This document shows positions 4,858 through 27,106 of a DNA stretch of 27,106 nucleotides, piece by piece. This DNA comes from a virus. The notes under the pieces are model-generated. The model ran no database searches. It had not been told where the DNA came from and worked only from the letters and a program-made list of their open reading frames with translations. The stretch is from positions 1-27,106 of the IMG/VR virus record IMGVR_UViG_3300007539_000161; one strand, written 5' to 3'. Numbering within the stretch: position 1 is the first letter of the stretch; each line of letters begins with the position of its first letter. The position numbers were made by a program, and so were the translations under genes.

Positions 4858-5193
4858 ATGTCGATCAAGCGAGATAGCCCCGAAAGAAGAAAAGCTTTTA
4901 GGGCAAGACATAATTGCGGCAATCCAGGACCAAAATGGAAGGCTAGATATTGGTCTTGCCGCCAATGGAGGGCAGGATCAAAAGTTGAAGGGTCTGAGTC
5001 ATCTTCAGAAGAAAAGTTAGAAAATCTCATTCTAGAAGAAATTGATGAGTCTAAAGCTAAGAAAAATAAACCAGGCTTGTGGGAAAATATTCGCAAAAAG
5101 AAAAAAAGAATGGGTAAAAATTATAAACCTGCAAAACCAGGTAGTAAAGATAGGCCCTCTCCAGAGGCATACAAAAAAGCTCAAGGGAAATAA
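4858..5193 (+). CDS. Small basic conserved phage protein (FRARHNC type), C-terminal part
   Basis: Read from ATG 4858 this gives 111 residues beginning SIKRDSPERRKAFRARHNC, then NPGPKWKARYWSCRQW and a lysine-rich tail. The real coding frame clearly extends upstream to 4753 (FSVYVKNDKGNIVKVNFGDPN precedes the ATG), so the ATG is probably an internal methionine; no ribosome site precedes it. Two cysteines and a histidine here could pair with CPDC of the upstream frame to make a zinc site. The family is common in environmental phages near portal and protease genes; its role is unknown to me, possibly nucleic-acid binding given the charge. The stop overlaps the next start (TAATG). Confidence 0.7.
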   Translation: MSIKRDSPERRKAFRARHNCGNPGPKWKARYWSCRQWRAGSKVEGSESSSEEKLENLILEEIDESKAKKNKPGLWENIRKKKKRMGKNYKPAKPGSKDRPSPEAYKKAQGK

Positions 5194-6806
5194 TGAATTA
5201 TAAATACACAACTCATTTCGAAAATGTGATTCACGCTTCTGCAGACGTGAACTCAAATGAATTTTATATATCTAATGCATCTCTTGATTACATTAATGAA
5301 TTGTTTCCTTCAGATATTGATTTAAATCAAAATATAGATCTTCTTGGTGTCAATTTTCATGGAGCGGTAGTTAATGCATTTAATAAAAACGGAGACGGCA
5401 TAGACACAAAATCAGCTAAAGCTATCGAAAAATACTTTTTGCATAAACCCACGAATATAGAACACAACAAAGAGAAAATTGTTGGGCACATAGTCAATAC
5501 TGGCATGGCTGACTTTGAAACGGGTAAAGTTTTAAATCCAAAACATATAGACGATGAAAATTTAGAAAAATTTAATATGTCATTTGCGGCAGTTATTTAT
5601 AAAAATAATCATCCAGATTTTGCAGAGCTTGTGCAAAATTCCACAGACGAAAATCATGAAAACTTTGGAGTTGTTTCTGCGAGCTGGGAATTAGGCTTTA
5701 ACGAATATTATATTGCAGCAGGAAGCAAGAATTTAAAAGATGCAGAAATTATAACAAACCCAGATCATATAAACGAATTATCCGAGCACCTCAGTGCTTT
5801 TGATGGATCTGGAGAATTGAAAGACGGCACACCTATTTATCGACTAGTCGTTGGGGACATTTACCCATTAGGTATTGGGTTTACTGCAAATCCAGCAGCC
5901 GATGTGAAAGGAATTGCGATTGCAGATTTAAAAAAAAAATCTATAGCTAAAATTGCAAATAATACCACAGCTAGCGAAGTCATTTCAGTAGATAATAAAA
6001 GTTTTTATAAAAAAAAGAAAAATAAAATTTCCCAAAACGGGAATTTGAATGTAATAAATCCTGTAACCCATTTATCACACATGGAAAAAGAACAATTATT
6101 AGAAGATTTTAAATCACTACTCGATGAAAAACTGCCCGAGCATAATTTTTCAGAAGAAGTGGTTGCTAATGTCTCAAAGGCTATCGGAGATGCGATCAAG
6201 TCTAAGAGCGAAGAGTATCAACTTAAACTTCAAGAAGTTGAAAACGAACGTGAAGCTATTGCTCAAGCAGAAGCCGCCATGAAAAAAGAAGTAGAAGATT
6301 TAAAGTCTCAACTTGAACAATCTTCTCAACAAGTTGAAGAACTTTCTCAGCAAGTTCACACAATTAAAGCTGAAGAAGCCTTCAATCGAAGAATGGCTAA
6401 AATTTCTGAAACATACGCTCTATCCGAAGATGACCAAAAAATTATCGCGACAGAATTGCAAGCTCTCGATCTTGAAGATCAATCGTTTGAAGATTATACA
6501 AGCAAGATTTCAGTTGTTCTCGCCCATAAAAACAAAGAATATATTGCCAAGCAAGAAGAAGAATTTAATCAGCGTATTGAAGCTGAAATTAAGAAACGTT
6601 TGGGTAAAGACGCTGGCATTGCAGCTGTTGAAGCTGTTGCATCAACAGAAGAAACTTCAGAATCTGCTGAAGCTATTCTTGAAACTGTAGAAGCCGAAGA
6701 GCAAACCATTACTAATAACAATTTAGAAAGTGTGCAAGAAGAAGATTCTCTTAAAGATAAATTCGCAAATGCATTCTCTAAAGAAAACCTTTCAATACAA
6801 TACTAA
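5193..6806 (+). CDS. Prohead protease fused to a scaffold domain
   Basis: The 537-residue protein has two halves. Residues ~1-250 look like a prohead serine protease: H91 and H99 (EHNKEKIVGHI) and S162/S164 (VVSASWE), in the order and spacing of the His-Ser proteases that mature HK97-type capsids. Residues ~297-537 are highly charged and predicted coiled coil (many Glu, Gln and Lys, with QLEQSSQQVEELSQQV), as in capsid scaffolds. Fusion lets the scaffold carry the protease into the prohead, where it destroys itself. An internal ATG at 6081 (residue 297) sits at the domain border and could start a scaffold-only product, though no ribosome site is seen. It lies directly before the decoration and capsid genes. 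Confidence 0.85.
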   Translation: MNYKYTTHFENVIHASADVNSNEFYISNASLDYINELFPSDIDLNQNIDLLGVNFHGAVVNAFNKNGDGIDTKSAKAIEKYFLHKPTNIEHNKEKIVGHIVNTGMADFETGKVLNPKHIDDENLEKFNMSFAAVIYKNNHPDFAELVQNSTDENHENFGVVSASWELGFNEYYIAAGSKNLKDAEIITNPDHINELSEHLSAFDGSGELKDGTPIYRLVVGDIYPLGIGFTANPAADVKGIAIADLKKKSIAKIANNTTASEVISVDNKSFYKKKKNKISQNGNLNVINPVTHLSHMEKEQLLEDFKSLLDEKLPEHNFSEEVVANVSKAIGDAIKSKSEEYQLKLQEVENEREAIAQAEAAMKKEVEDLKSQLEQSSQQVEELSQQVHTIKAEEAFNRRMAKISETYALSEDDQKIIATELQALDLEDQSFEDYTSKISVVLAHKNKEYIAKQEEEFNQRIEAEIKKRLGKDAGIAAVEAVASTEETSESAEAILETVEAEEQTITNNNLESVQEEDSLKDKFANAFSKENLSIQY

Positions 6807-13358: not shown

Positions 13359-14306
13359 ATGGAAATTGACAATAAAAAATGGTTATATTCTTTCTCTATT
13401 AATATAGAAAAAGAAGTTGAAGAACAAGTCGAAAAAAAGACTAAACGCAAAAATAAAGAAACGGGTAAAATGGAAACCGTTACTTCAAAAGAAACCGTAA
13501 CAGTTAATAAAGAAGTTCCGTTTACGATTTTAATAAAAAAGCCGACCAGGAGCCAATTGGAAGATGGTGACATGTTCTATAGTCTAGAGCTGAACAAGTT
13601 CATAAAAATGGGTATGCTGACTAAAGCAATGTTGGCCAAGCAATATGGCAATCAAGGAGGTCTCTGGACAGAAAAAGAACAAGAGCTTTATAAGGATTTA
13701 ATGTACAAAATGCATGTCAAACAGCTTGATATACAGCAACTTTCAATTCTCGCAGACGGAGGCAAATTGTCCACCAGGCAAGAAGGCAAGCTTAATACAT
13801 ATATTCGTGAATTGGCAGAAATTAAAAAAGAGCTCACTGAATATGAAATGATTCAAAATTCTTTGTTTGATCACACTGCAGATGTTAAGGCTCGCAATCG
13901 CACAATCATGTGGTATATATTACATACCGCTCACTTTTTTGAAGGTAATGCTGAAGAACCTGTTATTGAAGAAATGTTCGAAGGAACATCGTTTGAAGAA
14001 AGGTATGAAGCTTATCAAGATAAAGAAGAAGCCGAAGACGAAATTTACATGAGGTGTATAGATAAGATATCTTCAGTTCTTACAGTTTGGTATATCAGCG
14101 GAATTCAAGAAAAAGACGGAATCGAAGAATTTATGGAAGAAATGAAAAAACAGCAAAATGATGATGTTGAAATTCTAGATTTCGGAACAAATGATGAAGA
14201 AGATGACATAGAAATTCAAGATTCCACTGCAACTGTAGAGAAAAACTCATCAAATAAAAAATCCAAAGCTTCCTCGGAGAAGGTAGTCGAGGATGAAGAA
14301 TCCTGA
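13359..14306 (+). CDS. Probable tail assembly chaperone, first of two related proteins
   Basis: The 315-residue protein lies between the tail tube and the tape measure gene, where siphophages encode the chaperones (lambda gpG and gpGT) that coat the tape measure protein before tube assembly. It has a beta N-terminus (KKWLYSFSINIEKEVEEQ), then an IKKPTRSQLEDGDMFYSLEL segment, GGLWTEKEQELYKDLMYKMH, long helices, and a very acidic tail with many Glu and Asp. The segment around residues 60-115 resembles the next gene (PTxxExE...GxWTxKEExxx), so the two look like paralogues. It overlaps the next gene by 14 bases in a different frame. Chaperone role is inferred from position, paralogy and acidity. 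Confidence 0.6.
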   Translation: MEIDNKKWLYSFSINIEKEVEEQVEKKTKRKNKETGKMETVTSKETVTVNKEVPFTILIKKPTRSQLEDGDMFYSLELNKFIKMGMLTKAMLAKQYGNQGGLWTEKEQELYKDLMYKMHVKQLDIQQLSILADGGKLSTRQEGKLNTYIRELAEIKKELTEYEMIQNSLFDHTADVKARNRTIMWYILHTAHFFEGNAEEPVIEEMFEGTSFEERYEAYQDKEEAEDEIYMRCIDKISSVLTVWYISGIQEKDGIEEFMEEMKKQQNDDVEILDFGTNDEEDDIEIQDSTATVEKNSSNKKSKASSEKVVEDEES

Positions 14307-15297
14307 TCGAGAAAAACGTCTAGAAAGTCTTTTTCAGGAAATCAAACAAGGGTTCTCTGTGTTATCAGAGAATGACTGTATATTATACATTAAGCACCCA
14401 ACCGCTAATGAAATTGAGATTTCGAAACAAGCGTATGATAAAAATTTTGAAAAAGCAATTAAACTAGGAGTTCAGCCAGAAAAAGAGTTGTTAGAGTTTT
14501 TAAACGAGCAAGGAGCCTGGACAACAAAAGAAGAAGACGACATGATCGTTAGGGAGCAGCAGCTCAAAAACCTAAACAAAACAATAGATAAAATCAGAAT
14601 TGAACGAGATCGAAAACCAATTGAGGAAGAAAGAGATTCAGTTCAAGCTCAATTAAAATTAGATAAAATTAAAAGATTTAGTCTTGTTAAAAAGACGGCA
14701 GAATCTTATGCTCAAAAACATAGCAACGAAGTCTTTATATACAATTGTATATACAAGGATAAAGAATTCACGAAATTATACTGGAGCCAAGAAGAGTTCG
14801 AAGAACTAGACTATGTAGAACTTAATGAATTTTTAAAAAAATACGAAAATCATGTAAAAAGATTTGAGCATGATGAACTACTTCAATTATCTATCACAAA
14901 TTGTTTTACATCTTTATTTGGGCTTTACGGAAACGATGTGACTGGGTTTTTTAAAAATCATCCTATGGATATGAGCTACTATCAAGTTCATTTATTGAAT
15001 TATGGGAAAATGTTTAAAAACATATTTAAAAACAGAGAAATACCAGACCATATTAAAAATGATGCTAAAGCAATATTAACTCATCTAGAAGATATGGAAA
15101 ATATAAAAAATAATAAAGACACAGTAAAGAATAAATCTCAAAAGTCAGACGGTTTTTCATATGCTGGTGCAACAAAAAAAGATTTAGATAACCTCGGAAT
15201 TAAAAAAGGAAAAAACCAAAAAGATATTCATCAAATAGCAAAAGAAAAAGGTGGAAAATTAAATATGGAAGATTTTCTCGCACTACATAAAAAATAA
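14293..15297 (+). CDS. Probable tail assembly chaperone, second of two related proteins
   Basis: The 334-residue product begins inside the end of the preceding gene, so translation is probably coupled. Its N-terminal part, CILYIKHPTANEIEISKQAY followed by LLEFLNEQGAWTTKEEDDMI, parallels the first protein. The rest is helical (ELLQLSITNCFTSLFGLYGN) and the end is basic (FSYAGATKKDLDNLGIKKGK). In lambda the second chaperone form arises by ribosomal frameshift; here two complete genes seem to fill the roles, without an obvious slippery site in the 14-base overlap. The basic tail could contact the tape measure protein or tube. The function is inferred. Confidence 0.6.
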   Translation: MKNPDREKRLESLFQEIKQGFSVLSENDCILYIKHPTANEIEISKQAYDKNFEKAIKLGVQPEKELLEFLNEQGAWTTKEEDDMIVREQQLKNLNKTIDKIRIERDRKPIEEERDSVQAQLKLDKIKRFSLVKKTAESYAQKHSNEVFIYNCIYKDKEFTKLYWSQEEFEELDYVELNEFLKKYENHVKRFEHDELLQLSITNCFTSLFGLYGNDVTGFFKNHPMDMSYYQVHLLNYGKMFKNIFKNREIPDHIKNDAKAILTHLEDMENIKNNKDTVKNKSQKSDGFSYAGATKKDLDNLGIKKGKNQKDIHQIAKEKGGKLNMEDFLALHKK

Positions 15298-15325: not shown

Positions 15326-18300
15326 ATGAGTGTAGTAAATATACCTACCTCGGCTACGGGGTTTCATGGCAGTATCGTTGCTCAAGCAAAAAGTGCGCAG
15401 CGAGTTGTCAACAGCATGCAAATAACTCCGACCTTAAATGCTAAAGGATTTGTTCAGCCACTTGGCAGAATTACAAATTCTGCTAGTGAGTTTCAAAAAT
15501 CAATGGATGCATCAGCAGCTCGTGTTTTTGCATTTGGTGCTGCAGTGGGGGTTATTAATGGAGTTTCTGATGCATTCAGAGGGTTAATAGCTGCAACTGC
15601 AGAAGTTGAAAAATCATTAAAAGATATTCAAGTTGTAATGGAAGTTTCTAATGAGGCTATGCAACAATTTGGAAAAGGTTTATTTGATGTAGCAAGAAAC
15701 ACTGCAACAAGTTTCGGTACAGTTGCAGAGTCTGCAGTTGAGTTAGCTCGTCAAGGTTTAAGTGCAGAAGAAACACTAGCCAGAGTAAACTCAGCATTAA
15801 TATTAAGTAGACTTTCAGGTTTAGATGCAGTCAAGTCAACAGAAACATTAACTGCGGCCATTAACTCATTTAATGCAGAAGGTATAACTCATGAAGAAAT
15901 TGTTAACAGAATGGCTAATGTCGATGCAGCTTTTGCAGTTTCGTCTGCAGACATGGCGGAAGCTATATCTAGAGCAGGAGCTGTTGCTCAATCTGCAGGA
16001 GTCTCATTTAATGAATTGTCTGCTATTGTCACAGCAGTTCAGCAAAGAACCGCTAGAGGTGGATCAGTAATTGGTAATGGATTTAAAAGTATTTTTACAA
16101 GAATTAAACGTAGTGGTGTTAGAGAGGCATTAGAAGAAATTGGTGTCGCTACTCAAAATAACGACGGAACATTTAGGTCATCAATAGCGATCTTAAAAGA
16201 TTATGCTCAAGTTTATAAAGGTCTGTCTGACTCGCAAAAAGCATATACTTCAGAACAAATAGCTGGTGTATTTCAAATACAAAATTTACAAGCATTAATT
16301 CAAGACCTTAGCGGAGGGTATTCAATTTATGAAAAAGCATTAGATGTAGCTAATAATACAACTGACGAAGCTACTAGAAGAAACAAAGAACTCAATGAAA
16401 CTTTGAGCGCTCTTTTCTCCCAAACAGGCAGTAGCGCAAAAGAATTAGCATCTACCATAGGTAATCTTGGATTTAATGACGACTTTAAAGAGATACTAAA
16501 ATTTTTAAATAGTTTAGCAGAAGGTATTAATAATCTACTTGATGAAAATCAAGGCAGTACAATAGCTAAATCTTTAGTGAAAGGAATTAGTTCTTTCCTA
16601 ACAGGACCAGGATTAGTTTTAATAGGAGCTGCTTTTATTAAAATCTTTGGGTTGGTTGGTAAATTTGCTAAGGAAGCATTTTCTGATCTTTTGGGAATCA
16701 ATTCAGAAACTAAAAGACAACAAACATTGCAAGCAGCAATTGGTGCAATGTTATCTCAAAATGCTGGCTTGTATCAGCAAATATTAGCAACAGGTAAAAA
16801 TCAAGCAGCTCAGGAAAAAATTATTTTAAATGCTATACAAGCTGAAACAGCTGAGCGATTAAAGCAGGAAGCTATTGTTAAAAGGATTGCTGCATCGAGT
16901 AGGTTAATAGGTGTTGGTGCGAGTGAGCAAGGTTTTGTTCCAATGGGTAAAAGAACTTCAAGAGGTGTAGGTAGAAAAACATTAAATATGTCTTCGGGCT
17001 TTATTCCTGAAATAAGAAAAGAACAAGCAGACATTGACCGTGGAATAGGTGGGGCCAAGAAATCTGATAAACCAAAAGTTTTAAAAATTAAAACTCAACC
17101 AAACAAAATTGAAAAGGTTGTCGCCAATACTGGGGAGGCAATAGTTAAAAACTATTTAGATTCAGGTGCTGATGCTATATTCAATAGAGATATGGTCAGA
17201 CAACAAGGTTTACCAGAAGGAGCAAAGAAAATTACTGCTGCTATGGGTTATGTGCCAAATTTTAGAAAAGGAATAAGTCAAAAAGAACTAGAAAATAAAA
17301 AACACGAGTATTCTGCTGTGGAGTTAGGGTGGAGTCAATTTGGTCAATCAGTCATATCAAAATATGCAGATCATTATGATAAGTTTGTGGGTACTGTTAA
17401 AGTCGAAAGACTAGACAAAGACTTAAAGTTTTTTCAAAAAACTGCTGATAAAATTGTAAAAGGAGACAAATCTAAACCCAACTTTCCGCCACTCATACAT
17501 AGAGATGATGTCACGGATCCAGAAACTGGAAAAAAATATAAAAAATATGCAGTCAATCCAAAATCCATGAAACTCCTGAAAAGGCGTTATGGACCTTTAC
17601 TTGAAACAGCTCCATATACTGGAATCCAGACTGTAGCAAACAACATTAAAAACGGACAATACGGAAAAAATGTTGCTAAAAAAATTCCATCATGGACAGG
17701 AAAGAGACCCAAAGAATATGATCCTTTGTTTGCTCAATTAAATAATTTATTGCAAGGCGTAGAAGGAGAGTATCAAAGTGGTAAATACGTTAAAAACAGA
17801 GGATTTAAAAATGTCAAAATAGTACCAGGATCAAAAAGTTTTGATATAGAAGCCAAAGACAAAAATAATAAAAAAATTAGATTTGAATCAAAAGCCGTGG
17901 AGAAACAAAATGTAGTGGTCGGATTAAAGAAAGCTGCTGTAGAGTTTTTAAGAGATACTGTATCTAAGCAACCTAAAGAAAATAAAATTGGAATAAAAGA
18001 CGGAAAGCCCACAAAAATTAATTTAACAGGAAGAGGAGCATTATTTAGCGGAGGAATTAAAATGCTTACAGCTAAAGATACTCAATTAACTCGATCCATA
18101 CTTACAGCAAAAGACACAACAAAATTAATTTCAGAATTAAAAAAGTCTGGGGTTACTCAATATGTAGATGCATTAGCTGGAGTAAACTCGATCAAGACTT
18201 CAGCTTCAACACTTTCTAAAAAAGAGTTAAATCGAAGACTTAATAGTTTTATAGAAAATGATAAAAATGAACATTTACTAGAAAGCTTAAATCAATATGT

Positions 18301-21300
18301 TACTCAAACCATTAATAAGCAATCAAGGAAGTCTATTGAGAAGTATATTGATAATGCTAATATAACAGACCTACAAGTATTGAATAATAGTTTTGCTGAA
18401 AAAATCGCAGCTTTAAAAAGAAAAAACAAATCAAACGATTCTAGTATAAATGAATCCGCAAATTCGCTATTTCCTTTTGGGGTATCTTATTTATCGCAAG
18501 GTTTTATACCTAATTTTATAGATAGGCGAAATAGAGCACAAAAAATCAAAGATGTTTTAGCTGATCCTGCAAATAAAAATATAAAATTCAACTCTCCACT
18601 CACTCAAAAAATGTCTATTGATACAGTGAAAAAAGGCATGGGTGGAGAATTTCAAAAAATGTGGTTGGAAAGCTACTTTAAAACTGGTAGGACGGGAGAT
18701 TATCAAATGCTAATGAAAATGGGTTATGACCCAGATAAGCTAAAAGCCCTCAGAAAGCATAGCGAACAGGGTGGACAAATAGATATCAAAACTATGGCAA
18801 ATGGGATGATACCTAATTTCGCGATGCAAAGAGGAAGTTTAAGGAGGTACACTCAAAAAGTTCACACTCAAGGAATCAAGGATCCTAAAGGTAAATTGTT
18901 TTATAAAGGAGACAAGTATAAGGAAGTAAAATTTAATGCTCCTCAAGCAGAAAAAGACAAAGCTACATGGATTACACCTTCTTATCAAACAATCCAAGGA
19001 GATCGAAATGAAATCAATGAATTTGCTAAATATCTTGAAACTAGAAAAGATCTTAAACCGTATGTTGTTGATAATTTTAAAAAAGAATACTCAAAAGAAT
19101 TAAAAATTGCGGAAGAAGCTCAACAAAATTATTGGAAAACTTACGAAAAAATACAATCAGGAAATTCAGGGCTTTATGAAAGAAATGGTTTTTTTGGAAG
19201 AAAAACCATGCCATCAGAAGATCCTTTAAAAGTGCAATTAAAATACCTAAAAAAAGATCAAATAGATAGCCTTGTCTCAGATTTTAAAAAACAACAAAAA
19301 CCTTCGTTTTCCGAAGGTTATGTTCCAAATTTTGCAGAATCAGAACGTACTAAAATAAAAGGCATGGGTATGTATTCGGATGTAAGCTCAGTTGTAAATG
19401 AGAAAGGCAGAACTTTAGATGTGGGAATGATAATGGCAGGAATGAGGGATTCTGGCGCAAGTATTTATAAAAGATTGTTAAACGAAATAGAAACAGCCGC
19501 AAAAGAAGGAAAGCCTTATACGAAAATTAATGCTGGCTCAATAGTAGGACCAAGAATTCCAAAAGCTTTGTTGACAGCTAAAAAATTGTTAGACAAAAAA
19601 AGACTAAATCAGAATATTCCACTTATGACTTTAGATGGAATGCTTAATCCCGCTCGTTTATTTAGAAAAGTTCAAGAACATAGAAGAGTAAGTTATAACA
19701 AAGAAAAACAAAAATCTAGAGATTCTTCTAGATACATATTCGGAGAAGAAGCAAGTTTAAAAAAATCTTTACGTAGTTTAGGTTTAGGGCCTAGCCGTGA
19801 CAAAAAAGATAAAACTACATACTTGAGTGATTTATGGATTGGTAAAAACTTTGTGGATGGATATATACCAAGCTTTGCGAATTTAAAATTGTGGAGAGGG
19901 CAAAGTAAAGATAGAAACAAAATTGATTCGCCTGATATTAGTAAAACCATGCCATCTTTCGATAATGCAAAAACTCCAGATGATGTAGTAGGTATTATTC
20001 AAGGCTTTGTAAAATCGCATGTTAGCGGACCACTTTCTGGTTATAGAGATATTGGGGATGTAGGTAATAAAATGCCTTCTGGAGCAACATCTTTTAGCAC
20101 TTCAGAAACGGTTGCTAAAAATTTTGCAGGTAGTATCACTCCTGGACAACCAGTTACTAAGGGTCAAGTATTGTCTAAGGAGGTTCCAGAAAAAAATGTA
20201 TTTAATAAGAAAAAACTTTTGCGAATATTGTCAAAAGGATCTGACCCAAGCAAAGGTTACTATCCAAAAGTCGAAGAATTTAAAAAAGGAATTAAAGACG
20301 GATCGATTAAAGATTGGGCTGAAAAGAACGAAGGCATATATTTAAATGTTTTTGGTCGCAGAAACGACAGGAAATTATTGAAATTTACTCACATGGATCA
20401 TGGAGCAAAAAGATATGATTTTTATGATAGACCAATGAATCAAATAGTTCCTCTGAAAGGTATTGGTAGAAATTCAGATGGAACTTCTCAAATTAGCCCA
20501 AGAGAAGCAGAGGTAATGCAAGTTATGTCAAGAGGGCACATGCCTTACAATAGATCTTCGGGGTTGAGTAGGTATAAACAAGAGACTTATGTTCAGGGAA
20601 TTAAAGATCCTAAAGGAAAGCTCTTCTATAAAGGAGATAAATATAGAGAAGTAAAATTTGATGCCCCACAAGCAGAGCGAGACAAAGCTTCATGGATTAA
20701 ACCTTCTTATCAAACAATTAGAGGGTCCAGAGAAGAGGTTCAAGCATTTACTAAGTTTTTAGAAACTAAAAAAGATCTTAAACCTTATATAGTTAGAGAA
20801 TTTAAAAAAACCCACCAAAAAGAGTTAGAAAAATCATTAAATTTTGAAAAACAATATTGGGAGGGATACGAAAAAGTTAGATCTGGTCAAGCAGGGTTCT
20901 ACGAAAGAAAAGGTATTATGGGCAGAAAAACTTTGCCTGCAGATGATCCTTTAAAAGTTGAAATAAAATATTTAGCAAAAAAAGATATTGATAGATTAGT
21001 TAAAGAATTTAGAGAGCATCAACAAAATAGACCTTTTAATTTTGCAGGAGGATTTACAAACAAAAGTAGTATACCTATTAATTTAGCAGGAGGCTTCGTG
21101 CCCGCAATGAACGCTGAAAGAAGAAATATTGCACGTGGCGTAGGAGGTGCAAGATCTGGAGATAAGCCAGTTAAAACTAAAATTAGAACTTCCCCTGGAA
21201 GAGCGCAATCAGCGGTTGTGCATACTGGAGAATGGATTGTTAGAAATTATCAAGGATCAGGAGCTGATGCAGTTTTTAACAGAAATATGGCCAAAAGCAT

Positions 21301-24300
21301 GGGGCTACCAGCTGGAGCAAAAAAAGTAACTGCAGCGGATGGCTATATACCAAATTTTGCAGGATCAGGGGGAATAATGACAAAAAAGGGGTGGCTAAGT
21401 ACAGCCAAGATTGCTAGATTAAAGGATCCAGAAGGTTATTCTGTTTGGCCTTCAAAAAGTGACACAATTAAAGACAGGGTAGGAGATAAATCAGTTAAGC
21501 TTTCAGAGTTTGATCAAGAAGATCGAGCTCTTATTAAAGGTTTTAAAGCTACACATGGTAAAGAAAATTTGGCAGTCAAAAAACAAGATCGAATGGATCA
21601 ACGAAATGCAATGCCTCATATTGATGCATCAAGAACTGCTACAATGCTTGTCCCGACTCACGGCAAAAGAGGAAGAGTGAATACTACATTTAAGGCTCCT
21701 ATGGATATCATAAAAGGAAGCGATAAAGATAGGCCGACTGTTAGAATGCAATATAGAGTAGAGGGGTTAAAACCAGCAAGATTAAAGGGGGCTGAAAATA
21801 ATATCAGGACTTCTGTTAAAGAAAATTTAATAGAACAATCCAAGATTATTGCTAGCAATATAGCTGGGCCTAGGTTTGCTTCACAAAATAAACCTATAAC
21901 AAATTTAGCTAACGCAGGTTCTGTGGGTGCTGCAGCAGGAACAGTTTTTGAAACTGCAATACAATCAATTGGCAAAAATAAACTTTTTACATCCAATAAT
22001 GCCAATTTTGATATTGGATCATTTCCCGATGAAAAACTACAAAAATTATTTGGATATTATACCCCCTTTGCTGATGCAAAAATAGGATTAACAAAAGACA
22101 CAAAAGCCGATTTTAATGCTAAACTATTAAAACTTCCAGATAATGCAAAAAAATTAGCAGATGCCAGACGAATGCAACAGCAAGAAATGTCTGCAGCCAT
22201 GAGGAGAGAGCATGGGCCAGCCACTAAGTCTGGAGGTAAGGTAGTTAATTTATCTGGAGGATTTATTCCTAATTTTGCACGAGGTAAAATTACTGCAAGA
22301 CAAGCTGATTGGTTACGAAAGAAAGGTTTAGATGAAGACCAAATCAAAGTCATCAAGCCAAACGAATATCGGGAGATAATGAAAAAAGATATTAATGAAA
22401 GAGCTCAATCCGATGCACGTGCAAAAGCGAGAAGAGAAAAAGCGGCACTAGGCTATAGATTTCCAGGTTTTAAATACAGATCTAGTTATGAACCTGTAGT
22501 TAAACAGCAACCAAAAGTTTCTGTAGAAACAAAGGTTCAGGAATCAAATAAATTTGGAAAAGCTGGTGTAGCTTTTTCATCAATTAATGCTGGAAAAATT
22601 AATAATATTTCAAACAGAATGAGTCAACTGGAGTCTAGGGTTAAGGATCTGGAGTTGTCCAGGTCTACTAAAAATTTTGCACAAGGATTTATTCCTAGCT
22701 TTGCACATGCTAGACCACAGACGATCAAAAGAATAGAAGAGCCACAGTCAATTTATAAAGAAAGTAACGACTATTTAGATAATCCAACGAAAGCTTACAG
22801 CAGTATACCGAACTTTGTTTTACCAGATAATAGACAATCAAAGAAAAAATGGTCAGCCGCTGGTGAATCAAACGTTGGTTTTATTGAATCAACAGTCCGT
22901 GAAGGAATACTGAATGGGCAACTAAAAGGCTTAATAGAAGACAATGAAAAAGGAAAACTGAAATTTGATGGACACACTATAATCAAACCAAGCGGAGAAA
23001 AAGTTAGCTCATATGATATATATCGTTACGCTAATGACGAAAAAGTAAAAAGATATATTCGTGACGATGTTAATATGAAGATATCTAAGCAGACGCAGAG
23101 TTCTGCCTGGGACACTTTAAAATCTTTAGTTACTGGCAAAAGATCTCAAAAAATGGATCATACAGATAAGTTTTTGCGAGGTGCCAGTCAAAGTCCTGGT
23201 TGGACTGTAAGTAATGGTAGAGCATTTATAAATGCATCTACAATTAGCGATTTAGTTTCAAAGCCTGGTGCTACAGCAGGCATGTATAATATAGCCCCTA
23301 ATACAGTGAGTGTGGAAAATCTAATAACTCAAACAGCAATGGATTTTTCAGCAGGGCAGGAAGAGCAGCGAAGATTTCAAGAAAGAAGAGACGCAACAGG
23401 TTCAAAATCTAAGAAGCCACTTTCAAATATGCTTAGTGGAGCAAGATATGGAATCGGTCAAGCTATTGGTAGAGTAACAGATTTAGCTAATTTATCTAAT
23501 TTGGGGAAAATTAATATCGGATCAAAGTTTATAGAGCAGTATGGTAAAATATCAAGTTCTTTAAGTAGTTATATAGAAAAATATAATCTTGGAAACATGA
23601 CACAAAAACAAAGAGAGAAATATATTGCCATCAAGGAAAGAGTACAAGAAAAAATTACAAATTTAAATGATAAAGTTTCGAGATTGAGGGTGGGGTCTAC
23701 TAGAAAAAGATTAAAAGAAATAGAAAATAAAATATATACAGTGGGCGGAGAAAAAGGTTATACTTATATAAATTCTCACAGAAATATGTCGGGAGAATCC
23801 TTTAATAATTACAAATCCATTAAAGATGGATCTACTATAAGTGTTGCAGAAATAGAAGACTCAAATACAAAAACCTTAATTCAAGATCATGAAAGAAAGT
23901 ATCAATTAAAAAAATCACTTATCGAAAAAGAAAAAAAACAAGCAGCTTTTAAAAATCGAATAGATTCAATTAAAAAATATGGCTCTGAAGTTGTAGATAA
24001 AAGTGGAAAAATAATCAATACAACTTTAATGGCTCCAGTTGAATTATCGAAAAAATTAGGGTCAGGAGCTTTGAAGTTAAAAGATGGAGCAGTTGGGGCA
24101 TTTAGGCAAATAGATTTTCAAAAAGGTGTCACGAACACAATAGACACCATGAGAGACATAAAAAGCAGGGTGTCAAGTAGTGCAGAGAATCTTAAAGATA
24201 AAACTTTGGGAGTAGGAAAAGCTATAAAGGGTGGCACATCTAATATTATTGGTTCCGCTCAAGATGGAGTAAGGTCTGTAGGACAACCGATTCTCACTGG

Positions 24301-27106
24301 ATTTGTAGCTGGAATAGAACAAGCTAATCAAAGAAGTAGAGACTTCAAGAGGCAAGCTCAAGCCTGGGGAATAAAACAAATTAAATCTGCAAGAGATTTA
24401 GTGCAGGGAGGTTTAGATTTATTCAAAGTCCCAGAAGGAATAAAAGACAGAGGGAATGCCGTAACTCAAGGTTTTTTATCTTTCTTTGGTACAGGAGCAC
24501 CTAAAAATAAAACAATCAACAATTTAAAAGAAAAAGTGTCAAATAGTTCTCAGAATATAGTCAATTTCTGGAAAGAATCTGTAGAAAAAGTTGGTACAAA
24601 GTTTAATTTTAATGATATAAAAAATAATCTTTCTGGTCAGTTTGAAGGGCTTTCTGATAGAATTAAAAGCGGAGCAAAATACGCTGGAGAAAAAACAATT
24701 TCTCCCTTGGTTTACGGAGTTCAAAGAGCATGGGAAGAAACTAAACAACAAGCCGATAAACTAAAGGAAGCTGGTATTGCCAGAGCTTTAGAAGCTTCTC
24801 AATTAATGGCATTTTCTCAAGGAGGAACTGACCAAGAAAAAATTCAAAATGTTAAAGAACGATTAAAGTCAACTAAAGGTTTTGTAACCGAAAAGTTTAA
24901 AGGGCTTTCTGCAAGAAAGATGGGAATAAATCCAAAATCTCTAGCAGGATTATCTTTGTTAGCTATACCTTTTGCACAAACAGGAGAAGCTCCTTCAGAG
25001 CAAGAAAAATTAATTATACCAGATTCAAAATTTGAATCTAAAGACGAAGCTATTAAAAACGAATTAATTAGCAACCACCCAAGAATTAAAGCATTAATCA
25101 ATTCAGAGTATACGAAGTACACAGAACAAAAAACTGGAAAAAAATCAGACACGTTCTTAGAACACCTGAGTAATCATAAGGCTTTAAAAGGAACTGTAAC
25201 CAAAGAGCTTGAAGAAAAGTATAAAGAAGATGAAAATGAACCAAATTATTTAATGAGACAAATTTTAACCGCACTAGGTGTTTTGTCTATTGGTGGTTTT
25301 GCTATTCACATGTCAAGAAAAAACAGAATTCAAAATGAAAAATTTAATTTAAATAATTTAAAAGTTAAAAATGATTTAATAAATGCTTTTCCTAGTCAAG
25401 AGTCTTCAATTAATAATAAATATGAACAATATTTAAAAATTGATGAAAAAAGAAAAGAATCTTTTCAAAATTATTTATTAAAAGATAAAACATTTAAAGA
25501 ATTAGGGATGATGGATGCTGTTAAAAATATTTCTCAGTACGAAAAGTTTCCAGCAATCAAAAACAGTCAAGGGCAGACTAAAAAATTAAAACCCGCAGAA
25601 ATGGAAAAGTATAATTTGTTTTCAGAGATTTTAGATCAAGAGTTAAGAAATGCTCAAAAAGAATTATATTCAATGGAAGTGCTTGGTAAAAAAACCGACG
25701 GAACTCCTTTGGAGTTTGAGGAAGTTGGTCCCAAGAAAGATCCTAAGACTGGATTTATTGATAGAGCAACTGGAGTACAATCAAAAGAACTCGAAGAACA
25801 CAAAAGGTATATTAAGGATTTAAAAAATGCAATAAAACAAAAAGAAACTTTTTTTGCTGATTCACTAAAAGAGTCCAGGTTAAGACATGTTATTCCCAAC
25901 AGAATAGGATCAGGAATAAATAAGATGATTCCTAAATTTATGAGAGGTAGGTTTCCTCGTCTGAATTTTAGCGAAGGATATATTCCTAATTTAGCTAGAG
26001 ACACAAATCAAAAAGCGAATAACATAGAATATGAAAATTTTGCACGAGGATTTTTTGGATTAAAAGGTAGAAGACCCGCCCCATTAATGAATCGACCAAG
26101 CGAATCAAAAGGTAAAAGCCAAAACCTTTGGATATCTAAAAATATATTTAAAAATAAAAAACAAAAACTTGAAGATAGCAATAATATTGTTTATGACAAA
26201 ACTAGATTTAGAGACTCAAAAGAAAGAGTTTTAGAAATCAAGGCAATTCAAGCTGATGGAGCTACAAGTGGTGCAGAAATATTTAAATCTCTGTACAGTC
26301 ATATAGAAAAAGCTGCAGCCCAAGGAAAGCCTTTTACTCGAATTGATGCAGGGCAAATTACTGGTCCAAAAATACCAGACTTAATTGTTAGAGCAAAAAA
26401 AATACTAGACAAGAAAAGAAAATCAGGAGTAGATATTCCTACTATGGAAATTACAGGAGGATTTTCTCCACAAAGAATATGGAAAAGATCTGAGCCAGGC
26501 AACAGAGGCCAAGAAAATTGGGTTTATGGAGATGTTGGTTATGGCGTAACTTACTCAGCTAAAGATAGAAGTAGGTCTTTGAAAGCTATGAGAGAAATGG
26601 GTGTTAAGAAATTTGATGGACCAGATGAATCATTTTATCTTCAAGAGTCCCCCATGTTTCAAAAAGGATTTTCAGAAGGATTAATTCCAAACTTTGCAAG
26701 AATGACTATGGTTAAAAACAGGCTTCAGCAAAACAAAATGAAGGATACTGGATTACCAGGAGATCCCGATGGTATTCGGTTAAAGCTTGAGAAAGCCAAA
26801 AAGAAGAAAGACAAAGAGAAGGGCCTAAAACTAGCCTCCGAAACCACTGAAACTCCCACAAGGTTTAAAATTATTAAGGTTAAATACAGCCGCAAAAGAT
26901 CTCAAAAAGACCACGATACTTTTGGAAAAGGAATGGGAGCCTACAACTCTGGTGCTTCTCCAGCATTATCAGAAGGATTAATTCCAAACTTTGCAAGAAT
27001 GGCAACAGTTGCTAAAAAGAGATTTTCTAAAAGGTTGAGTAAAGATGAGCATCTAGAGATGCGTCAAGCCACTGATGCAATTAATGCACTGGGTGGAGCA
27101 AAGAAT
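15326..27106 (+). CDS. Giant tape measure protein with repeated GYIPNFA-type motifs and embedded enzyme-like domains, 3' partial
   Basis: One frame stays open from ATG 15326 to the window edge, 3,927 codons, with no stop. Tape measure proteins line the tail tube, set its length and often help DNA enter the cell. Residues ~60-330 match the TP901-type core by eye (AESAVELARQGLSAEETLAR, SSADMAEAISRAGAVAQSAG, then GVSFNELSAIVTAVQQRT); a hydrophobic segment follows at ~421-446. After residue ~550 the protein becomes a mosaic: modules A (~572-646, ~1937-2012), B (~1175-1324, ~1750-1900) and C (~1369-1448, ~3641-3721) each occur twice, with nuclease-like segments at ~770-880 and ~2190-2270 and an ADP-ribosyltransferase-like segment at ~1520-1745. 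GYIPNFA-type motifs separate many of them. Residues ~2500-3550 lack the motif and are helix-rich, with a second hydrophobic segment at ~3313-3328. Tape measure identity is firm; domain functions are inferred. Confidence 0.88.
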   Translation, partial: MSVVNIPTSATGFHGSIVAQAKSAQRVVNSMQITPTLNAKGFVQPLGRITNSASEFQKSMDASAARVFAFGAAVGVINGVSDAFRGLIAATAEVEKSLKDIQVVMEVSNEAMQQFGKGLFDVARNTATSFGTVAESAVELARQGLSAEETLARVNSALILSRLSGLDAVKSTETLTAAINSFNAEGITHEEIVNRMANVDAAFAVSSADMAEAISRAGAVAQSAGVSFNELSAIVTAVQQRTARGGSVIGNGFKSIFTRIKRSGVREALEEIGVATQNNDGTFRSSIAILKDYAQVYKGLSDSQKAYTSEQIAGVFQIQNLQALIQDLSGGYSIYEKALDVANNTTDEATRRNKELNETLSALFSQTGSSAKELASTIGNLGFNDDFKEILKFLNSLAEGINNLLDENQGSTIAKSLVKGISSFLTGPGLVLIGAAFIKIFGLVGKFAKEAFSDLLGINSETKRQQTLQAAIGAMLSQNAGLYQQILATGKNQAAQEKIILNAIQAETAERLKQEAIVKRIAASSRLIGVGASEQGFVPMGKRTSRGVGRKTLNMSSGFIPEIRKEQADIDRGIGGAKKSDKPKVLKIKTQPNKIEKVVANTGEAIVKNYLDSGADAIFNRDMVRQQGLPEGAKKITAAMGYVPNFRKGISQKELENKKHEYSAVELGWSQFGQSVISKYADHYDKFVGTVKVERLDKDLKFFQKTADKIVKGDKSKPNFPPLIHRDDVTDPETGKKYKKYAVNPKSMKLLKRRYGPLLETAPYTGIQTVANNIKNGQYGKNVAKKIPSWTGKRPKEYDPLFAQLNNLLQGVEGEYQSGKYVKNRGFKNVKIVPGSKSFDIEAKDKNNKKIRFESKAVEKQNVVVGLKKAAVEFLRDTVSKQPKENKIGIKDGKPTKINLTGRGALFSGGIKMLTAKDTQLTRSILTAKDTTKLISELKKSGVTQYVDALAGVNSIKTSASTLSKKELNRRLNSFIENDKNEHLLESLNQYVTQTINKQSRKSIEKYIDNANITDLQVLNNSFAEKIAALKRKNKSNDSSINESANSLFPFGVSYLSQGFIPNFIDRRNRAQKIKDVLADPANKNIKFNSPLTQKMSIDTVKKGMGGEFQKMWLESYFKTGRTGDYQMLMKMGYDPDKLKALRKHSEQGGQIDIKTMANGMIPNFAMQRGSLRRYTQKVHTQGIKDPKGKLFYKGDKYKEVKFNAPQAEKDKATWITPSYQTIQGDRNEINEFAKYLETRKDLKPYVVDNFKKEYSKELKIAEEAQQNYWKTYEKIQSGNSGLYERNGFFGRKTMPSEDPLKVQLKYLKKDQIDSLVSDFKKQQKPSFSEGYVPNFAESERTKIKGMGMYSDVSSVVNEKGRTLDVGMIMAGMRDSGASIYKRLLNEIETAAKEGKPYTKINAGSIVGPRIPKALLTAKKLLDKKRLNQNIPLMTLDGMLNPARLFRKVQEHRRVSYNKEKQKSRDSSRYIFGEEASLKKSLRSLGLGPSRDKKDKTTYLSDLWIGKNFVDGYIPSFANLKLWRGQSKDRNKIDSPDISKTMPSFDNAKTPDDVVGIIQGFVKSHVSGPLSGYRDIGDVGNKMPSGATSFSTSETVAKNFAGSITPGQPVTKGQVLSKEVPEKNVFNKKKLLRILSKGSDPSKGYYPKVEEFKKGIKDGSIKDWAEKNEGIYLNVFGRRNDRKLLKFTHMDHGAKRYDFYDRPMNQIVPLKGIGRNSDGTSQISPREAEVMQVMSRGHMPYNRSSGLSRYKQETYVQGIKDPKGKLFYKGDKYREVKFDAPQAERDKASWIKPSYQTIRGSREEVQAFTKFLETKKDLKPYIVREFKKTHQKELEKSLNFEKQYWEGYEKVRSGQAGFYERKGIMGRKTLPADDPLKVEIKYLAKKDIDRLVKEFREHQQNRPFNFAGGFTNKSSIPINLAGGFVPAMNAERRNIARGVGGARSGDKPVKTKIRTSPGRAQSAVVHTGEWIVRNYQGSGADAVFNRNMAKSMGLPAGAKKVTAADGYIPNFAGSGGIMTKKGWLSTAKIARLKDPEGYSVWPSKSDTIKDRVGDKSVKLSEFDQEDRALIKGFKATHGKENLAVKKQDRMDQRNAMPHIDASRTATMLVPTHGKRGRVNTTFKAPMDIIKGSDKDRPTVRMQYRVEGLKPARLKGAENNIRTSVKENLIEQSKIIASNIAGPRFASQNKPITNLANAGSVGAAAGTVFETAIQSIGKNKLFTSNNANFDIGSFPDEKLQKLFGYYTPFADAKIGLTKDTKADFNAKLLKLPDNAKKLADARRMQQQEMSAAMRREHGPATKSGGKVVNLSGGFIPNFARGKITARQADWLRKKGLDEDQIKVIKPNEYREIMKKDINERAQSDARAKARREKAALGYRFPGFKYRSSYEPVVKQQPKVSVETKVQESNKFGKAGVAFSSINAGKINNISNRMSQLESRVKDLELSRSTKNFAQGFIPSFAHARPQTIKRIEEPQSIYKESNDYLDNPTKAYSSIPNFVLPDNRQSKKKWSAAGESNVGFIESTVREGILNGQLKGLIEDNEKGKLKFDGHTIIKPSGEKVSSYDIYRYANDEKVKRYIRDDVNMKISKQTQSSAWDTLKSLVTGKRSQKMDHTDKFLRGASQSPGWTVSNGRAFINASTISDLVSKPGATAGMYNIAPNTVSVENLITQTAMDFSAGQEEQRRFQERRDATGSKSKKPLSNMLSGARYGIGQAIGRVTDLANLSNLGKINIGSKFIEQYGKISSSLSSYIEKYNLGNMTQKQREKYIAIKERVQEKITNLNDKVSRLRVGSTRKRLKEIENKIYTVGGEKGYTYINSHRNMSGESFNNYKSIKDGSTISVAEIEDSNTKTLIQDHERKYQLKKSLIEKEKKQAAFKNRIDSIKKYGSEVVDKSGKIINTTLMAPVELSKKLGSGALKLKDGAVGAFRQIDFQKGVTNTIDTMRDIKSRVSSSAENLKDKTLGVGKAIKGGTSNIIGSAQDGVRSVGQPILTGFVAGIEQANQRSRDFKRQAQAWGIKQIKSARDLVQGGLDLFKVPEGIKDRGNAVTQGFLSFFGTGAPKNKTINNLKEKVSNSSQNIVNFWKESVEKVGTKFNFNDIKNNLSGQFEGLSDRIKSGAKYAGEKTISPLVYGVQRAWEETKQQADKLKEAGIARALEASQLMAFSQGGTDQEKIQNVKERLKSTKGFVTEKFKGLSARKMGINPKSLAGLSLLAIPFAQTGEAPSEQEKLIIPDSKFESKDEAIKNELISNHPRIKALINSEYTKYTEQKTGKKSDTFLEHLSNHKALKGTVTKELEEKYKEDENEPNYLMRQILTALGVLSIGGFAIHMSRKNRIQNEKFNLNNLKVKNDLINAFPSQESSINNKYEQYLKIDEKRKESFQNYLLKDKTFKELGMMDAVKNISQYEKFPAIKNSQGQTKKLKPAEMEKYNLFSEILDQELRNAQKELYSMEVLGKKTDGTPLEFEEVGPKKDPKTGFIDRATGVQSKELEEHKRYIKDLKNAIKQKETFFADSLKESRLRHVIPNRIGSGINKMIPKFMRGRFPRLNFSEGYIPNLARDTNQKANNIEYENFARGFFGLKGRRPAPLMNRPSESKGKSQNLWISKNIFKNKKQKLEDSNNIVYDKTRFRDSKERVLEIKAIQADGATSGAEIFKSLYSHIEKAAAQGKPFTRIDAGQITGPKIPDLIVRAKKILDKKRKSGVDIPTMEITGGFSPQRIWKRSEPGNRGQENWVYGDVGYGVTYSAKDRSRSLKAMREMGVKKFDGPDESFYLQESPMFQKGFSEGLIPNFARMTMVKNRLQQNKMKDTGLPGDPDGIRLKLEKAKKKKDKEKGLKLASETTETPTRFKIIKVKYSRKRSQKDHDTFGKGMGAYNSGASPALSEGLIPNFARMATVAKKRFSKRLSKDEHLEMRQATDAINALGGAKN
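15500..16400 (+). other. TP901-type tape measure core domain
   Basis: Residues ~60-358 of the giant protein show the usual order of the phage tail minor protein core: helix EVEKSLKDIQVVMEVSNEAM, VELARQGLSAEETLARVNSA, TETLTAAINSFNAEG, VDAAFAVSSADMAEAISRAG, GVSFNELSAIVTAVQ and IGNGFKSIFTRIKRSG. This is the part that justifies the tape measure call. Confidence 0.8.
16586..16663 (+). other. Hydrophobic, possibly membrane-inserting segment 1 of the tape measure protein
   Basis: Residues ~421-446 read ISSFLTGPGLVLIGAAFIKI and then FGLVG, with a single lysine inside. Such segments in tape measure proteins may insert into the inner membrane during DNA delivery; here this is only inferred from hydrophobicity. 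Confidence 0.5.
17039..17263 (+). repeat. Tape measure module A, copy 1
   Basis: About 75 residues: RG-GGA, DKP, basic stretch, VVANTGEAIVKNYLDSGADA, IFNRDM, GLPEGAKKITAAMGYVPNF. Copy 2 is at 21134-21361. The copies differ at many silent and coding positions, so the duplication is old, but NTGE/HTGE, IV-NY, GADA-FNR-M, GLP-GAKK and the closing motif are kept. I know no function for it. Confidence 0.75.
17740..17960 (+). other. PD-(D/E)XK nuclease-like segment 1 inside the tape measure protein
   Basis: A helix with GVEGEYQSGKYVKNRGF (Glu 813/815) is followed by SFDIEAKD with D840, a short turn, and RFESKA with E854 and K856. Glu helix, Asp strand, then E-x-K strand is the active-site pattern of this nuclease fold, and the next helix is in the expected place. 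The fold is very diverse and the call is by eye, so it is tentative. Confidence 0.4.
18848..19297 (+). repeat. Tape measure module B, copy 1
   Basis: A 150-residue unit beginning YTQKVHTQGIKDPKGKLFYK and ending near SDFKKQQ; copy 2 is at 20573-21025. The two are roughly 60% identical by eye, with stretches such as QGIKDPKGKLFYKGDKY and ETRKDLKPY/ETKKDLKPY nearly unchanged and silent differences between them. It directly follows a GMIPNFA motif and precedes a GYVPNFA motif, so it behaves as a movable domain. Function unknown. Confidence 0.8.
19430..19669 (+). repeat. Tape measure module C, copy 1
   Basis: About 80 residues with SGASIYKRLLNEIETAAKEG, then KINAGSIVGPRIPKALLTAK and KLLDKKR. Copy 2 is at 26246-26488, about 45% identical by eye. 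The strand, glycine turn, long helix, strand order resembles the central part of GNAT acetyltransferases, but no diagnostic residue proves it. Confidence 0.65.
19889..20560 (+). other. ADP-ribosyltransferase-like segment (R-S-E pattern) inside the tape measure protein
   Basis: The segment opens right after a GYIPSFA motif with LWRGQS (R1524), then GATSFSTSETVAKNFAG (STS 1591-1593) and a strand-rich GQPVTKGQVLSKEVPEKNVF, and later REAEVMQVMSRG with E1727-A-E1729. R, S-T-S and E-x-E in this order mark the R-S-E class that binds NAD and modifies proteins. The gap from STS to E-A-E, about 135 residues, is longer than usual, so an insertion is needed or the E-x-E choice is wrong. The STS part followed by A--FA is the strongest sign. 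Confidence 0.5.
20573..21025 (+). repeat. Tape measure module B, copy 2
   Basis: 151 residues beginning YKQETYVQGIKDPKGKLFYK, matching copy 1 at 18848-19297 over its whole length. It follows the ADP-ribosyltransferase-like segment directly and precedes a decayed linker (GGFVPAM) and module A copy 2. Confidence 0.8.
21134..21361 (+). repeat. Tape measure module A, copy 2
   Basis: About 76 residues: RGVGGARSGDKP, VVHTGEWIVRNYQGSGADAV, FNRNMAKSMGLPAGAKKVTA, then ADGYIPNFA. It matches copy 1 at 17039-17263 and ends, like copy 1, in the linker motif, so motif and module were copied together. Confidence 0.75.
21902..22130 (+). other. PD-(D/E)XK nuclease-like segment 2 inside the tape measure protein
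   Basis: AGTVFETAIQSIG gives a helix with E2209, NANFDIGSF a strand with D2229, and FADAKIG a strand with D2250 and K2252. This again fits the E, D, (D/E)-x-K pattern of the fold. It lies between the GYIPNFA at 21341 and GFIPNFA at 22259. Similar in pattern but not obviously in sequence to segment 1. Tentative. Confidence 0.4.
25262..25309 (+). other. Hydrophobic, possibly membrane-inserting segment 2 of the tape measure protein
   Basis: ILTALGVLSIGGFAIH, residues ~3313-3328, flanked by Arg and Lys (MRQ before, SRKNR after), looks like a short transmembrane helix. It sits in the motif-free helical stretch, which also holds GLSLLAIPFA near 24950. Confidence 0.5.
26246..26488 (+). repeat. Tape measure module C, copy 2
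   Basis: About 81 residues with SGAEIFKSLYSHIEKAAAQG, then RIDAGQITGPKIPDLIVRAK and KILDKKR. Matches copy 1 at 19430-19669, more than 6.5 kb away, and like it is followed by about 60 to 70 unrelated residues and a linker motif. Confidence 0.65.
26672..26704 (+). repeat. 33-base exact direct repeat, copy 1
   Basis: Encodes SEGLIPNFARM. The same 33 bases recur at 26969-27001 with different flanks on both sides. Other linker motifs differ in DNA sequence, so this pair is recent or kept identical by recombination. Confidence 0.9.
26969..27001 (+). repeat. 33-base exact direct repeat, copy 2
   Basis: Identical to 26672-26704, 297 bases downstream and in the same reading frame (297 is a multiple of three), so recombination between the copies would delete 99 codons in frame. 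Confidence 0.9.

Follow-up and report, generated by a model that had tools for sequence, protein, structure and literature searches.

Phage tape measure proteins (TMPs) travel in the tail tube and are ejected ahead of the DNA or together with it. Enzyme domains within TMPs are already known, and so, separately, are injected phage proteins that contain many enzymes. An experimental precedent is Tme, an effector of a contractile injection system (CIS) that is related to TMPs and has an active endonuclease domain (PMC11126660), and the C-terminal domains of Sle1 are diverse and swappable (PMC13277306). Both resemble the proteins described here in joining a TMP-like backbone to a variable functional domain, but they have a single C-terminal domain and belong to bacterial CIS, whereas ours are TMPs on phage contigs with several internal modules and the motif GFIPNFA between them. 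Polyvalent proteins, known from phages and conjugative elements, are giant, virion-linked proteins that combine unrelated enzyme domains and are predicted to be injected (Iyer et al. 2017, PMC5512222); the word “tape” is absent from that article, and we found in it neither a TMP backbone nor a fixed slot or a motif at domain boundaries. ART and GNAT domains have been reported in phage polyvalent proteins (PMC7824862). Polymorphic toxin systems (PMC3482391) likewise pair a constant delivery part with exchangeable effector domains, but there they have one C-terminal toxin, while here the putative cargo is internal and multiple. The TMP of Bacillus phage Stills, which is annotated with LysM and lysozyme domains, shares with our protein a PF10145-type core, a position after tail chaperone genes, and the presence of extra domains. 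In ours, unlike the Stills TMP, the extra domains share a single exchangeable slot and have a common motif at their boundaries, and the module types include nuclease, acetyltransferase, and ADP-ribosyltransferase (ART)-like rather than wall-active. In the literature searched, which included few subscription papers, we came across no account of this family, nor of any TMP with a cargo slot and a motif at the boundaries of its modules. Judging from the sequences, we consider it probable that this is a TMP with a cargo cassette, in which exchangeable enzyme-like modules are delivered at infection and a short motif lies at their boundaries.

The window analyzed here is the entire 27,106-nucleotide IMG/VR virus record IMGVR_UViG_3300007539_000161, and all of the features given below lie on its plus strand. 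Its largest ORF (15326-27106) starts with an ATG at 15326 and runs for 3,927 codons without a stop, remaining open at the end of the window; because the window is the whole record, the C-terminus of the encoded protein is missing. A profile search matched PF10145 to aa 111-314 of this ORF (E=1e-28, above cut-off), and TMP families of PHROG matched it as well (best 3.8e-47). By these profile matches the ORF encodes a phage TMP, in agreement with the original prediction of a giant TMP with more than 3,900 open codons. On the ORF map it directly follows genes of tail tube and chaperone type, roles that were assigned from position, and the gene families upstream of it are conserved in 71-78 of 81 loci. 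Among these are a gene at 13359-14306 (family in 77/81 loci) and one overlapping it at 14293-15297 (78/81 loci), both of which are, from their position, probable tail assembly or TMP chaperones. Among the genes adjoining the TMP in the 81 loci compared, we saw no protease that is conserved together with the motif. As the slot in the window already exceeds 3,200 aa, the full-length TMP may approach 5,000 aa.

Elsewhere in the window, an ORF open at its 5’ end (1-654) has a match above cut-off to phosphomannomutase of the eukaryotic type (PF03332, E=1.9e-29), which is unusual beside a phage terminase. A 537-aa ORF between the portal and capsid genes (5193-6806) looks by eye like a prohead protease-scaffold fusion, and it had no Pfam match above cut-off.

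The TMP of the window contains nine copies of the strict pattern G[YFLM][IV]P[NS][FL]A, compared with none in 2,000 shuffled proteins, and 14 copies of the looser G[YFLM][IV]P, compared with a mean of 0.2 in the shuffles. The original prediction of about fourteen copies or remnants after an ordinary core was right about multiple copies beyond the core, but the number itself is 16, comprising 11 near-canonical copies and five remnants (aa 536, 558, 1737, 1923, and 2493), all of them downstream of the core. Its statement that three segments are present twice also holds, with pairs at aa 553-646 and 1918-2011 (53% identity), aa 1171-1325 and 1746-1900 (segment B, 61%), and aa 1352-1458 and 3624-3731 (segment C, 41%).

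The N-terminal core (aa 1-540; 15326-16945) includes the PhageMin_Tail domain recognized by PF10145, and it is followed by the first copy of an M1-type linker mini-domain (aa 553-646; 16982-17263), at whose end is the motif GYVPNFR (aa 641; 17246-17266). Slot module 1 (aa 641-1058; 17246-18499) has a loose nuclease-like signature read by eye (GEY...FDIEA...FESK), for which there was no HMM confirmation, and its conservation extends to about aa 930 only in the close relatives L142, L145, L148, and L155. The motif GFIPNFI (aa 1059; 18500-18520) opens slot module 2 (aa 1059-1159; 18500-18802), which is 64-70% identical to a module of L141 and L142, and GMIPNFA (aa 1160; 18803-18823) then precedes the first copy of segment B (18836-19300). 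Beyond GYVPNFA (aa 1331; 19316-19336) lies the first copy of segment C (19379-19699), which has homologues in L145, L148, L049, and L151. The motif GYIPSFA (aa 1512; 19859-19879) begins an ART-like module (aa 1512-1736; 19859-20533) with the signature LxRGQ / SFSTS / ExEVM, and this is followed by a degenerate motif, GHMPYNR (aa 1737; 20534-20554), where relatives have GLIPNF or GYVPNF. Internal comparison places the second copy of segment B at 20561-21025, ahead of the second M1-type mini-domain (21077-21358), which is homologous to a stretch in about 45 other TMPs and ends in GYIPNFA (aa 2006; 21341-21361). From there to aa 2311 (21341-22258) is a module of what we call resident cargo family 0, with the PD-(D/E)XK-like signature GTVFE...FDIG...ADAK. 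The motifs GFIPNFA (aa 2312; 22259-22279) and GFIPSFA (aa 2454; 22685-22705) come next, the latter at the start of a segment of 1,097 aa (aa 2454-3550; 22685-25975) with no family match above curated cut-off. This long segment is rich in helical, charged repeats, with weak YtxH/synuclein-like matches and relatives at its start only, and it could be membrane-active or structural. The remaining part contains GYIPNLA (aa 3551; 25976-25996), the second copy of segment C found by internal comparison (26195-26518), and two copies of GLIPNFA (aa 3785; 26678-26698 and aa 3884; 26975-26995), the last of them near the open end of the ORF.

Relatives were gathered with queries made from the TMP core and from single modules. 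Of 30 aligned IMG/VR TMPs, 29 have cores that are 36-47% identical to that of the window, and the remaining one is 21% identical. The family shares a common plan, in which a core of about 540 aa is followed by the motif, M1, the motif, cargo, the motif, M2 or M3, the motif, and a C-terminal part. The slot consists of 1-10 modules, usually with an M1-type linker mini-domain at its start and an M2/M3-type one at its end. Many members have one resident cargo of about 270 aa that belongs to family 0 (120 segments in 119 loci), while others have up to ten modules. Mini-domains M1, M2, and M3 all terminate in the motif, many other copies of the motif adjoin no mini-domain, and the cargo segments form many families without detectable mutual similarity. 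In none of the 58 TMPs that reach a stop codon does the slot contain a predicted transmembrane segment. The length of the C-terminal part varies widely across the whole family; in L142, L145, L148, and L155 it is 1,035-1,187 aa, compared with 974-1,809 aa for the slot.

Exchange of modules takes place at the motif. Local homology between TMPs begins at positions -5 to 0 and ends at positions +5 to +9 of the motif, and the share that falls within 10 aa of it is 16% for starts and 20% for ends, compared with 4-5% at random positions. The conserved motif itself extends alignments, so that part of this edge effect is expected, but the homology nonetheless stops there. Relatives that are about 60% identical over aa 1-930 contain different or reordered modules, while two more distant TMPs, L149 and L169, have copies of the window's ART-like module that are 56-58% identical to it. 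Among the motif copies of a single TMP, codons agree at 0.568, compared with 0.520 expected from codon usage; as this is only slightly above usage, selection acts mainly on the protein. Copies within one TMP are also alike at residues 2 and 6 beyond a GC-stratified shuffle (0/500), which is compatible with either a lineage-specific partner or internal gene conversion. In L220, L221, and L222, one variant dominates in each TMP, with GLIPNF or GLVPNF in most copies, which suggests a lineage-specific preference.

The motif is nearly exclusive to this TMP family. In 80 IMG/VR contigs whose TMPs were picked by the core alone to avoid ascertainment bias, it occurs in 79/80 TMPs (median 4, maximum 11) and in none of the 1,458 other ORFs (371,789 aa) of the same contigs. 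A GFIPNFA codon-pattern scan of IMG/VR gave at least 120 stretches, and among the matches listed 114 ORFs have the strict motif, mostly in several copies, with lengths that in almost every case run to hundreds or thousands of residues; an equally specific reversed-peptide control gave 22 single matches. The sequence logo of the matches listed is [AS]xG[FY][IV]PNFA, with little conservation of the flanks. Across 18 virus records (~1.84 Mb) there were 101 motif matches, all on one strand per record, and none in the backward control. By comparison of coordinates by hand, 99 of these were within the fetched TMP ORF, and the other two (in the L151 record) were just past the fetched stretch, where the TMP was still open. 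A longer motif pattern, applied to the genomes of bacteria and archaea in GTDB (257 Gb), gave 16 matches, which is near chance; two of them were in TMP-like contigs of metagenome bins (MAGs; L124 and L131), and the others were scattered singles, so that no prophage reservoir was seen. The L124 and L131 TMPs come from short contigs binned to a Proteobacteria MAG and an uncultured-bacterium MAG, and these give weak host hints only. Slot, linker, and ART-like modules had no match in 50,697 GenBank phage records at the sensitivity used. A scan for the core family confirmed at least 557 relatives, which makes this a large group of TMPs. The original prediction had described the protein as a mosaic with domains separated, and perhaps exchanged, at the motif, and both the shared plan and the homology edges agree with this, as do the different and reordered modules of close relatives. 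The clustering of the motif inside tape measure genes that it anticipated is also what we observe, rather than a wide occurrence in unrelated proteins, and the occurrence of similar motifs in uncultured phages, which it mentioned, is borne out by the IMG/VR relatives.

The slots of this family combine biochemically unrelated domains, namely SNase, GNAT, HATPase, and ART-like types; in the window itself, enzyme domains are indicated by signatures only. Two modules exceeded curated cut-offs in HMM searches, an SNase in L102 (E=2e-9) and a GNAT in L066 (E=1.5e-4), and a HATPase match in L026 (5e-5) was just under its cut-off; a cytidyltransferase-related match was also present in the census. Scanned for known families, 145 slot segments yielded few matches, leaving most modules without an assigned function. 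Segments resembling P-loop, HAD-like, kinase-like, and HExxH proteins were read by eye only; Pfam gave no confirmation of the kinase-like and HAD-like segments, and the matches from PADLOC and NCBIfam were all weak and scattered. The R / STS / ExE signature of the ART-like module, an R-S-E class pattern, is conserved in all aligned members. A query with this module returned ten contigs, all of which carry it only inside motif-bearing giant ORFs and with the motif at both edges, one edge being degenerate in L226. The ART-like module had no Pfam or PDB profile match, and its structure model was unusable (pLDDT 32). In family 0, GxxFE / DFD / DFK are conserved, and the order of helices and strands in a model of relative L178 is plausible for PD-(D/E)XK; searches with this model using Foldseek and VIA-align returned nothing significant, which does not in itself indicate a new fold. 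Both the ART-like and the PD-(D/E)XK-like assignments were made from signatures, and no enzyme is proven in the window itself.

The model of L178 has a mean pLDDT of 70.7 and a pTM of 0.42, with most of the cargo at a pLDDT of ~80-90. The stretches with pLDDT below 50 are 1-28, 102-106, 349-366, and 432-465, and each of the four motifs lies within one of these or borders on it. The low pTM fits independent modules, and the low pLDDT at the motifs suggests flexible linkers, so that in this model the motif is found in or beside low-confidence linkers and not buried inside continuous domains.

Taken as a delivery device, the protein would be a TMP proper, formed by the N-terminal core and the C-terminal part, with soluble enzyme-like modules held in the slot between them. 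As the TMP is ejected with or before the DNA, we infer that these modules would be brought to the envelope or into the cytoplasm of the host as infection starts, where they may act as early effectors, including nucleases, an acetyltransferase, ADP-ribosyltransferase-like enzymes, and others. The motif, in the form [AS]xG[FYL][IV]PNFA, would then be a short linear motif that marks the module boundaries. Conserved hydrophobic heptamers in flexible linkers are usually partner binding or cleavage sites. We slightly favor specific proteolytic separation of the modules, which is a tentative choice, over binding by a tail partner or a chaperone, through which the modules would stay ordered or remain unfolded inside the tube, which is itself a real possibility, and we favor both over an inert linker, which seems unlikely; some other role is more unlikely still. 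A more specific and rather doubtful proposal is that GFIPNFA is recognized by a processing or loading factor that is phage-specific and dedicated to it. These TMPs would then be a general plug-in platform for effector delivery, in which any domain flanked by the motif could be packed in the tail, injected, and set free in the host as an enzyme of its own. Docking to the tube at regular intervals was judged unlikely, as the core has no copy of the motif and the copies are irregularly spaced, ~70 to 1,100 residues apart.

The strongest alternative, though an unlikely one, is that the slot modules have a structural role instead of acting as intracellular effectors, either as spacers or as components of the tail tip, making the tail longer or assisting penetration of the envelope, and that their enzyme-like signatures are relics. 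Most modules indeed match no enzyme family, and known TMPs bear peptidoglycan-active domains, as annotated for Stills, but SNase, GNAT, and HATPase are not wall-acting, the catalytic signature of the ART-like module is strictly conserved, and the slot varies almost two-fold between close relatives whose C-terminal part is little changed, all of which argue against this reading. Others concern the motif itself. It might be a DNA-level recombination seam, a short shared sequence with no role in the protein, and the coincidence of homology breakpoints with the motif and the shuffling of modules among TMPs are what such a seam would leave behind. We regard this as improbable, because the codons of motif copies agree little more than usage predicts, while it is the amino acids that are conserved, with exchanges between similar residues (F/Y/L and I/V, for example). 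We give even less credence to the motif being part of a repeated fold, at the edge of the M1/M2 mini-domain, with the modularity reflecting merely tandem duplication within the TMP. The mini-domains do end in the motif and the window does contain three internal duplications, but this reading fits poorly with the many motif copies away from mini-domains, the lack of detectable similarity between cargo families, and the low confidence at the motifs of the L178 model.

If the modules are indeed exchangeable cargo bounded by the motif, this would account for some TMPs being far larger than the tail requires. It would also give tailed phages a second route, beside head-packaged proteins, for delivering many enzymes together. 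The motif would then serve as a sequence tag with which early-takeover enzymes could be mined, each segment between motifs being a candidate effector, nearly all of them unannotated.
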